From the NCBI GenBank assembly GCA_026196275.1, contig JAPHTQ010000015.1, forward strand, positions 1 to 35,280: a DNA stretch of 35,280 bases, read 5' to 3'. The position numbers were made by a program, and so were the translations under genes. The notes beneath the pieces were generated by a model. That model was not told where the DNA came from. It made no database searches and was given only the letters and a program-made list of their open reading frames with translations. This DNA comes from Gammaproteobacteria bacterium. GTDB taxonomy: Bacteria; Pseudomonadota; Gammaproteobacteria; Thiohalomonadales; Thiohalomonadaceae. This document shows, piece after piece, positions 3,019 to 10,361 of the stretch; position 1 is the stretch's first letter; every line of letters begins with the position of its first letter.

Positions 3019-3087
3019 GCGACGGCGCCAGATAGGCAGACGGCACCTTGTGACCAATGCCGATCAGTTAAGCAGTTTCGCTATTGT

Positions 3088-3137
3088 GTAGGAGCCGAGT
3101 CCCTTCGGCGAATTTCGCCCAGAGGACTGGCTCCTAC
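3088..3137. repeat. REP hairpin of the GTAGGAGC type
   Basis: GTAGGAGCC (3088-3096) and GGCTCCTAC (3129-3137) are perfect 9-bp arms, extended by GAGTCC/GGACT. The head TGTAGGAGC is typical of Pseudomonas-type REP elements mobilised by RAYT transposases. It lies between the convergent ends of rpiA and the 68-residue gene and could end transcription in both directions. Confidence 0.7.
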
Positions 3138-7925: not shown

Positions 7926-8084
7926 CTCACGGCGCTTGGCTTGGAGGAAAGCGTTTTAGTTTACCACGCCCGGCGGCAATGTAGGAATCACCGATCCACT
8001 ACATAGATGCGCAATGTAAAAGCCGTTAGCGCGAAGGGGACAAAGGGATGAATTGCTGCCGGTAGGGCAATAGCAAACCGGGGC

Positions 8085-8786
8085 TCATTCCGCCTTACCA
8101 CTCAGCTTCCTTGGCCGCCCCCTCCTTGCCTGCCCCACCCTGCACTTTAGCTTGGCCTCAATCTTCTGCCGGAAAAAATCGTTTCCCAGCGGGGTACCCG
8201 TTTGCCACGCAGAGCGAATGTCGTCCAGCACCCCTTTATCCAGATGGGCCTTGAACAGCGCCTTGTACGCCGTCAGGCGGGTGGGCAGGGTTTTCCCCAG
8301 CGCCAGATAGAGCGCATGCGGGGTGATCAGATCGTCCCCCTTGCCCTGGCCGTTGTGACGATAACTGGACCAGCGATAGTGCGCTGGTGAACGCACCATA
8401 TCCGCCCGGACCGGATTCAGCTCAATGTAGCGCATGCAGCTCAGCAAGTACTCCTCGTCGTGGATCAGGCTGGCCTTGTAACGCCCCTCCCAGATCGAAC
8501 CGCTGCTGCCATAGGTACGGTTAATGTACGGAACATACCACCTGCCGACATACTGCATCATCCGCGTGATCCCCTCCGTGTCACCCGCCGTGGCAAGAAT
8601 ATGGATGTGGTTGGTCATCAGAACATAGGCATGAATCTCGACCTTGTAGCGCTCGGCGCCCTCCTTCAGCCAGCGCAGATAGGCCCGATAGTCGTCATCA
8701 TCGAAGAACACGGGCTCACGACTGTGGCCGCGCTGTACGATATGGACCGGCAAACCGGGGAGGAAGAAGCGGGGTTTTCTTGGCAT
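8085..8786 (-). CDS. REP-associated tyrosine transposase (RAYT, IS200-like Y1 HUH family)
   Basis: This 233-aa single-domain Y1 transposase starts MPRKPRFFLPGLPVHIVQRG, typical of RAYT proteins. The HUH metal-binding pair is in TNHIHILA (H60, H62) and the candidate catalytic tyrosine lies in GRWYVPYINRTYG (84-92), followed by SGSIWEGRYKAS. RAYTs cut and join single-stranded DNA at REP hairpins with a GTAG/GTGG head and are usually domesticated single-copy genes. GTAG-type REPs occur 4-5 kb away (3088, 4049), and a different hairpin lies 55 nt before its start codon (8841-8863). It appears full length with an intact reading frame and a basic C-terminus (GQARRGRPRKLSGKAE). Confidence 0.93.
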   Translation of the reverse strand: MPRKPRFFLPGLPVHIVQRGHSREPVFFDDDDYRAYLRWLKEGAERYKVEIHAYVLMTNHIHILATAGDTEGITRMMQYVGRWYVPYINRTYGSSGSIWEGRYKASLIHDEEYLLSCMRYIELNPVRADMVRSPAHYRWSSYRHNGQGKGDDLITPHALYLALGKTLPTRLTAYKALFKAHLDKGVLDDIRSAWQTGTPLGNDFFRQKIEAKLKCRVGQARRGRPRKLSGKAE

Positions 8787-8840: not shown

Positions 8841-8863
8841 TTAAAGGGCTCTGACCCCTTTAA
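8841..8863. repeat. Hairpin copy 1, upstream of the RAYT gene
   Basis: TTAAAGGG (8841-8848), a 7-nt loop CTCTGAC, and CCCTTTAA (8856-8863): a perfect 8-bp stem. The loop is the exact reverse complement of the loop in the hairpin at 9512-9534, so the two are inverted copies of one element. GGGGTCAGAG cores of this kind are often seen next to RAYT genes. Confidence 0.8.
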
Positions 8864-9007
8864 CTTATTATTTAGACTTGCACGACCCGGATAGCCGGCA
8901 GCACTGCCGTCCAGGCTCGCCTGCCCTGCCACCGTGCCCGATCGGCGTCAGGAAGCTGTATCTTGTGCCATTGAGAATTTCTGTGATACGGTTCACACTA
9001 TGCTAAA

Positions 9008-9087
9008 AAAGGCAAACTCGCCGAAAGGCGGGGACGCAAAGTCACCGGTCTACGGGAGCGTATCCTATGACAGCGGGGCCGCCGGAC
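9008..9087 (+). ncRNA. Cyclic di-GMP-I (GEMM-I) riboswitch
   Basis: The conserved GEMM-I core is plain to read: GGCAAAC (9011 on), a GAAA-tetraloop hairpin (GCC-GAAA-GGC), GGGACGCAAAG followed by TCACCGG, then a second helical arm closing with GACAGCGGGGCCGCC. The GAAA loop and its receptor, the ACGCAAAG joining strand and AGCGGGG all match the Vibrio Vc2-type aptamer as I remember it. The aptamer sits about 180 nt before the start of a truncated membrane sensor gene, so it would have controlled that gene in response to c-di-GMP. I see no obvious terminator hairpin with a U-run after it, so the expression platform is unclear. Confidence 0.92.
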
Positions 9088-9268
9088 AGTCTGTGAGCCT
9101 GTCGTTCGCCAACTGCGCGCCTGCACTCACCCCCTTTCCCGCCACGCGAATCATCTCCCGTCCACCACTGGACCACCGTCTTGCGGCGTGTGCTGCGCCC
9201 TTTCGAACAGGGAACAGAACACTCACAGGGAAGCGAAAGTGACACCGCCGCACAACAGGGGACGAGGT

Positions 9269-9559
9269 ATGATGACAAGACCCGCTGCCGCCGCCGGGCA
9301 ACCGCAGCGCCAAGTGACCAGCCATTTCTGGCGACTCCTGCCATTCGGCATCGCCATTGCTGTCCTGGTGATCGCCTTTACGCTTGAGCGCCTGTTCGTC
9401 CAGCAGCAACAGCACCACCTGCAACGCACCATTGAGGCGCGTACTGTCGCGGTCAAGAACGAGATCCAGTCCCACCTCTCCAACTATCTGCTCTCCCTGG
9501 TACGCATCAGATTTAAGGGGTCAGAGCCCTTAAAACACCTCTTCATGCCGCAAACCTAA
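9269..9559 (+). pseudogene. 5' fragment of a membrane sensor gene (c-di-GMP-controlled), truncated
   Basis: GGGGACGAGGT precedes ATG 9269. The fragment encodes MMTRPAAAAG, one strong membrane helix (LLPFGIAIAVLVIAFTLERL, about residues 21-40) and the start of a periplasmic coiled segment (QRTIEARTVAVKNEIQSHLS). That is how PAS/CHASE-GGDEF-EAL or histidine-kinase sensors typically begin, but no sensor or output domain is present. Native coding ends at about 9511, where a hairpin repeat (9512-9534) is joined; the frame then runs through the repeat to a chance stop at 9557-9559. The rest of the gene is not found in the next kilobase. Together with the riboswitch upstream it is best read as the broken remains of a c-di-GMP-regulated sensor. 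Confidence 0.75.
9512..9534. repeat. Hairpin copy 2, at the breakpoint of the sensor gene
   Basis: TTTAAGGG (9512-9519), loop GTCAGAG, CCCTTAAA (9527-9534): a perfect 8-bp stem with the same loop as copy 1 in opposite orientation. It marks the exact point where sensor coding sequence stops. Confidence 0.8.
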
Positions 9560-9766
9560 CAATCTCCACCTCAGCCCCATGCTGCAATGCCACTTCGGCA
9601 CGCGCCATCAGCTGGCCGGTGATTTCATCGCTAAGATAATACTCACCACAGTTCTCGCAGACTTCCGGGGGACGTTCTTGAAGATAATGGTGGACTCACC
9701 GTGCTGCAGGGTCACGGTAACGTGGCCGGGATGGGTTTCGCCGTGTCTGCAAATCACGCAGTCCAT
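9543..9766 (-). pseudogene. YgiT-type zinc-finger protein, frameshifted
   Basis: From the ATG at 9764-9766 the frame reads MDCVICRHGETHPGHVTVTL and on to TIIFKNVP, with the first CxxC pair. It then goes out of frame at a run of five G (9667-9671, plus strand). One base further on, the other frame continues PEVCENCGEYYLSDEITGQL ... EVEIVRFAA and stops at 9543-9545. Restoring one base would give a 74-residue protein with two CxxC pairs, the YgiT/MqsA N-terminal zinc-finger type found as antitoxin or antitoxin-like partner. Its ATG directly abuts the stop of the HigA-like antitoxin, so it is the third gene of that operon. The shift lies in a homopolymer, so a sequencing error is a real alternative to decay. 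Confidence 0.75.
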
Positions 9767-10057
9767 TCAGCTCGCCTCATCCAGCAACACCTCAGGATGC
9801 TTCTCCACAATGCGCAATAGTGCCTTCGCCGGCCCTGTCGGTTTTCGACGCCCCTGCTCCCAATCCTGCAAGGTACGGATGCTGACACCAATAAGTCCGG
9901 CAAAGGCTTCCTGGGAGAGACCCAGCTTCTTACGGATGTCCTGTGCTGAAGAAGGGTCTTTGAGTTCTCGTGTATGGAGTTTAACCTTGCCGGCCTTGTG
10001 TGCCTTGATCTCCCGAATCCCTTCCAGGATCTCCGTTCCGATGTCTCGCTCAGCCAT
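9767..10057 (-). CDS. HigA/NadS-type antitoxin, Xre-family DNA-binding protein
   Basis: This 96-residue protein begins at ATG 10057 (MAERDIGTEILEGIREIKAH), which overlaps the toxin gene stop by 8 nt. A helix-turn-helix of the Xre class spans about residues 41-75 (IRKKLGLSQEAFAGLIGVSI followed by RTLQDWEQGRRKP). This is the usual antitoxin of HigB2/RelE-type modules: it binds the toxin and represses the operon. The gene order, toxin first, fits the higBA arrangement. A perfect palindrome ahead of the toxin gene (10372-10388) is its probable operator. The longer start at 10075 would lie deep in the toxin gene and is less likely. Confidence 0.88.
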   Translation of the reverse strand: MAERDIGTEILEGIREIKAHKAGKVKLHTRELKDPSSAQDIRKKLGLSQEAFAGLIGVSIRTLQDWEQGRRKPTGPAKALLRIVEKHPEVLLDEAS

Positions 10058-10361
10058 TTCCGATCTCCTCGGCAATCTGCTTTAGGATGTGGGCCGGTAT
10101 GGTGGAACGCTCATTCTTCGCATAGAGGGTGAGCATCCAAATTTCGTCATCGGCACACTTCCAGTAATAGATCACACGTATACCGCCTCGCTTGCCTCTA
10201 CCAGACACCGCCCAGCGGAGTTTGCGGACCCCTCCACTGCCCGGAACTATCACACCCGCATCAGGGTGTTCCATTAGCAGGGCTTGGAGACCCGTGTATT
10301 CGTCGTCGCTAAGGTAATCAGCGATATCTCGTGTGAACAGTGATGTTTCTATAAATAGCAT
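10050..10361 (-). CDS. HigB/RelE-type toxin
   Basis: This 103-residue basic RelE/HigB2-superfamily protein reads MLFIETSLFTRDIADYLSDD, then GVIVPGSGGVRKLRWAVSGR and GGIRVIYYWKCADDEIWMLT. The central G-[VI]-RK-[LI]-R-W motif and the GKRGG-R-V-I-YY motif are hallmarks of HigB2-like mRNA interferases, which cleave mRNA on the ribosome. Length and motifs look intact. The ATG at 10361 has GAGGGATCT just upstream. It is co-transcribed with the Xre antitoxin (8-nt overlap), giving a type II module that probably maintains this accessory island. Confidence 0.9.
   Translation of the reverse strand: MLFIETSLFTRDIADYLSDDEYTGLQALLMEHPDAGVIVPGSGGVRKLRWAVSGRGKRGGIRVIYYWKCADDEIWMLTLYAKNERSTIPAHILKQIAEEIGNG

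Follow-up and report, generated by a model that had tools for sequence, protein, structure and literature searches.

A c-di-GMP riboswitch that precedes an incomplete gene raises the question of how the remainder of the gene was lost and what the surviving RNA may still control. This arrangement is found in a gammaproteobacterium of the family Thiohalomonadaceae, on a stretch of 35,280 nucleotides (the window) that represents one entire contig (C73) of a 2.54 Mb genome, assembled in 88 contigs with 99% completeness. The riboswitch and the beginning of a membrane-sensor gene lie between two inverted hairpins, one of which neighbours the gene of a Y1 (HuH) transposase.

The aptamer occupies positions 9002-9087 on the plus strand and matches the Rfam model RF03167 (c-di-GMP-I-GGC) over its full length (positions 1-80 of 80), with 65 bits against a curated cut-off of 59 and an E-value of 2.4e-13. 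It belongs to the GEMM-I clan, for which the GGC variant model was retained, and this confirms the GEMM-I aptamer that the original prediction had placed at 9008-9087. The conserved core positions are present and, in the alignment, common to its siblings in the genome and to relatives, so that the window's aptamer resembles the RF03167 class both in its score above cut-off and in its core. The genome contains three GGC aptamers (65, 53.6 and 45.2 bits), with that of the window scoring highest. The two others, on contigs C8 and C50, each precede an intact PAS-GGDEF-EAL gene encoding about 1,173 and 951 residues, respectively, and these genes start about 115-190 nt downstream of the aptamer. The distance of approx. 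180 nt between the window's aptamer and its ATG corresponds to the same layout, but while the sibling switches are followed by whole GGDEF-EAL sensors, the gene behind the window's switch is cut to 81 codons. The leader between aptamer and start codon (9088-9268, plus strand) contains a possible Shine-Dalgarno sequence (GGGGACGAGG) at 9258-9267. A terminator scan of the leader revealed no intrinsic terminator that could serve as expression platform, and its predicted RNA fold is not more stable than that of shuffled sequences. Tandem arrays of three c-di-GMP-I-GGC aptamers occur in two relatives from the host's family (G010:C5:265306-265596 and G016:C160:28615-28906).

The open reading frame that starts with the ATG at 9269 encodes 96 amino acids, and its native part is the residual membrane-sensor gene of 81 codons (9269-9511, plus strand), which contains one hydrophobic helix followed by a probable helical segment. 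The last base of native coding is 9511, and the first base of the hairpin is 9512. That coding stops exactly at the hairpin, as first proposed, therefore applies to the native part, while the frame itself continues for 15 codons (FKGSEPLKHLFMPQT): it is read through the hairpin at 9512-9534 as FKGSEPLK (RFKGSEPLK across the junction) and runs on at 9535-9559 on the plus strand to a stop codon at 9557-9559. Pfam detects no domain above cut-off in the 96-residue product. The sensor start was searched in 56 related genomes, in 20 genomes of the host's order and in the GTDB contig set, and these samples contain neither homologues of the 81 residues nor an intact version of the sensor; in its own genome, the sensor start occurs at one place only. 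Relatives with the same 97-residue protein, which the original prediction had set against a broken gene, were thus not encountered. No GGDEF domain is encoded anywhere on the contig, and no remainder of the sensor lies behind the hairpin at 9512-9534; with the frame ending at 9559, an output domain downstream of the aptamer is absent. By its layout, which equals that of the two sibling GGC genes, the lost gene probably encoded a membrane sensor for c-di-GMP turnover with a GGDEF/EAL output. A CHASE-domain parent was rejected, since CHASE shows no match to the sensor start and this genome encodes its two CHASE proteins elsewhere.

The two hairpins, at 8841-8863 (TTAAAGGGCTCTGACCCCTTTAA) and at 9512-9534 (TTTAAGGGGTCAGAGCCCTTAAA), are both 23 nt long, with 8-bp stems and 7-nt loops that are reverse complements of each other. 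The former is oriented on the minus strand, where it reads GGGGTCAGAG, and the latter, located at the break of the gene, is on the plus strand. An inverted match of this kind has an expectation of zero in shuffled sequence, and both hairpins fold more stably than shuffles, with z-scores of -3 to -4. The proposed two inverted copies of one hairpin are therefore well founded. Exact copies of the 17-nt core are restricted to these two positions in the whole 2.54 Mb genome, and a third copy with one mismatch is located at C6:95058. The HAD-like and HD-GYP-like genes flanking this third copy look complete by eye, which argues against a displaced sensor remainder at this site. In the GTDB contigs, the core was recovered from at least 119 stretches, which are for the most part gammaproteobacterial according to their record titles. 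Among 369 genomes of the host's class, 32 contain it, and the reversed pattern, used as control, matched none.

The transposase gene (8085-8786, minus strand) encodes a 233-residue Y1 (HuH) transposase of the REP-associated type. It is recognised by PF01797 with 47-49 bits (cut-off 23), while its NCBIfam REP_Tyr_transpos score of 74 bits is below the cut-off of 80. Its motifs NHIH, WE, YIELNP and SS assign it to subclass 2.1, for which the published motif table gives NHVH and NH[YF]H and a median length of 238 residues, in agreement with the size of the window's protein (PMC6006769). A hairpin search alone retrieved relatives of this transposase at 31 of 148 loci, with 54-77% identity to the window's protein. 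In these relatives, one hairpin is located 34-116 bp (mostly 34-74 bp) upstream of the gene and a second, inverted one mostly 0-43 bp past residue 227. Examples are L163 (49 bp upstream, 8 bp downstream), L200 (57 and 0 bp) and L203 (74 and 6 bp). The hairpin flanks the genes of the relatives, and its suspected link to a RAYT-type transposase is hence corroborated. The hairpin at 8841-8863 precedes the transposase start by 57 bp, a spacing in keeping with that of the relatives, so that its position identifies it as the transposase's own upstream terminus, and a link to the riboswitch is unnecessary. In the window, the downstream terminus behind residue 227 is missing and the DNA there is unrelated, indicating at least one more rearrangement in the neighbourhood. 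A degenerate terminus near 8034 was considered and dismissed, as the best match (11/17) is equalled by 19% of shuffles. The hairpin at 9512-9534 is an additional stray copy.

The terminal repeats of TIRYT elements have the reported motif GGGGWSAS (PMC3733652), which the window hairpin fits as GGGGTCAG. The YIELNP and WE motifs are common to the window's transposase, the TIRtron/TIRYT elements (PMC3733652) and TnpAY1 subclass 2.1, which corresponds to RAYT group 1 (PMC6006769). As in TIRYT elements, GGGGWSAS repeats are present in inverted orientation, with the upstream one at the expected distance. Unlike TIRYT elements, the window's transposase is devoid of a downstream repeat, which its relatives carry, and Pfam detects no C-terminal HTH domain in the 233-residue protein. 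The window repeat is itself palindromic, a property described for only some terminal inverted repeats (PMC3733652). The hairpin also resembles the REP/REPIN sequences of RAYTs in being a short palindrome that occurs as inverted doublets across many genomes, but it differs from them in having two exact genomic copies instead of dozens to hundreds and in lacking the GT[AG]G foot (PMC2817692). No such foot is shared by the sequences flanking the two copies and 190 others, and the absent foot and the low copy number rule out a canonical REP. One large survey reported no REP-like flanking structures for this subclass (PMC6006769). Motif and arrangement place the hairpin among the GGGGWSAS-type terminal repeats that belong to Y1 transposases of subclass 2.1 (TIRYT/RAYT group 1).

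Copies of the hairpin elsewhere are mostly intergenic or located just past natural gene ends, as judged from heuristic open reading frames. At several loci (L115, L153, L087, L134, L184, L189 and others), incomplete copies, for example AAGGGGTCAG with a few additional bases, form stacks of direct repeats beside the hairpin, a pattern suggestive of repeated addition of the terminus. At L088, L112, L114, L171 and L183, the hairpin occurs as doublets whose extended stem is distinct (GATC or TTTC flanks), so that an identical core is set in different palindromes. Upstream of a GGDEF gene at L223 (2120-2380; G000:C88 near 13625), a short inverted-repeat element, the arms of which resemble GAGGAATCCCCACGA and TCGTGGGGATCCCTC, lies next to a partial hairpin (AAAGGGCTCTGACCC). 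By eye, L074 near 3040-3110 may contain two hairpin copies in frame within a coding region (KGSEPF ... KGSDPV); if true, the repeat would be tolerable as protein sequence.

Behind the hairpin at 9512-9534 follows a toxin-antitoxin locus on the minus strand, which is convergent to the sensor frame. It comprises a frameshifted YgiT-type zinc finger gene (9543-9766, TIGR03831 split over two frames), a helix-turn-helix antitoxin-like gene of the MqsA/NadS-like type (9767-10075, PF15731 and PF01381 above cut-off, TIGR03830 and NadS below) and a RelE-type toxin-like gene (10050-10361, PF06296 with 27.3 bits at a cut-off of 27). A one-base frameshift within a C run splits the YgiT gene and reflects either a real pseudogene or a sequencing error. 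Its stop codon is 8 bp from the hairpin, and the position of this copy behind the YgiT gene fits the usual place of the hairpin past gene ends. A terminator scan detected no intrinsic terminator at this hairpin on the plus strand, where a T tract is lacking. In a comparison with plasmid records, the aptamer part was the sole match of the region. In relatives from the host's order, the DNA preceding the DUF3683 gene has no neighbours in common with the window, and no relative keeps the locus, which is unconserved within the family.

The locus is probably a decayed riboswitch-sensor gene, cut short at a hairpin of the kind that forms the termini of a TIRYT-type (subclass 2.1) transposase element. 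A copy of this hairpin would have come to rest at or in the sensor gene, and the rest of the sensor would then have been lost by deletion or recombination, with the hairpin as one of the end points. The first 81 codons would thereby have been joined to the 3' end of the toxin-antitoxin locus, leaving a riboswitch with intact core before a 96-codon frame. As no sensor remainder is present past the hairpin, insertion alone is insufficient and a deletion or recombination is needed. The original prediction of an insertion or recombination event thus keeps its hairpin-linked loss of output, but not a plain insertion, because the hairpin is followed by the antisense 3' end of the toxin-antitoxin locus. 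Its orphan riboswitch agrees with an intact core without a whole gene and with a frame broken at the hairpin, although the truncation is a deduction and not a direct observation, because no intact sensor was found. Counting against truncation, a gene break at the hairpin is unusual in view of the places that other copies occupy.

The exact inverted copies, approx. 650 bp apart and the only two in the genome, would also be compatible with a mobile unit carrying the riboswitch and the sensor start as cargo. Yet in relatives the hairpin pair encloses the transposase gene, so that the initially assumed 650-bp unit between two flanking copies was not substantiated; the orientation in the window (minus on the left, plus on the right) is opposite to the layout in relatives, and the sensor start has no second copy, occurring once in the genome and in none of the others. 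Such a unit is decidedly unlikely. An inversion between the hairpins, which near-identical inverted repeats permit, could instead have flipped the riboswitch and the sensor start, with the gene once pointing towards the transposase; the missing downstream terminus and the missing sensor remainder could then result from one left-side deletion. The sequence retains no trace of such an event, no relative keeps the locus and a 23-bp repeat offers little length for homologous recombination, making an inversion quite improbable as well. In DNA amplified from single cells, inverted repeats promote chimeras, and the window, with its inverted repeats, is one of the assembly's 88 contigs. Nevertheless, a junction formed by assembly or amplification is extremely unlikely, considering that the 23-bp repeat is much below read length and that single amplified cells rarely yield 99% completeness.

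Two further explanations assign a role to what remains. A functional small membrane protein under riboswitch control would be in line with the conserved aptamer core, the plausible ribosome site, the single hydrophobic helix and the 96 open codons, but it is very unlikely, because no homologue of any length is present in the 56 related genomes, the order's 20 genomes or the GTDB contig set, and because the tail derives from the hairpin. The riboswitch RNA could also run antisense into the RelE/HTH/YgiT locus, which would tie the toxin-antitoxin system to c-di-GMP levels after the loss of the sensor. The convergent locus ending 8 bp from the hairpin and the lack of a T tract and of a terminator there would allow this, and one survey ranks c-di-GMP riboswitches first among the classes in antisense tendency (PMC9943018). 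The frameshift in the YgiT gene speaks against it, and convergent arrangements are common and may mean nothing; antisense control is thus very improbable.

Under the favoured truncation at a terminal hairpin, the 96-codon frame is most likely without function. The riboswitch, with its intact-looking core, may still control a short transcript, the product of which would probably be non-functional. The region represents ordinary genome decay caused by a widespread kind of mobile element and not a new system. The palindromic terminal repeat GGGGTCAGAGCCC is documented here across many genera for subclass 2.1, and the window provides a clear case of such a terminal hairpin of a Y1 transposase at the breakpoint of a gene, where the break deprives a riboswitch of a proper gene while its core stays intact.
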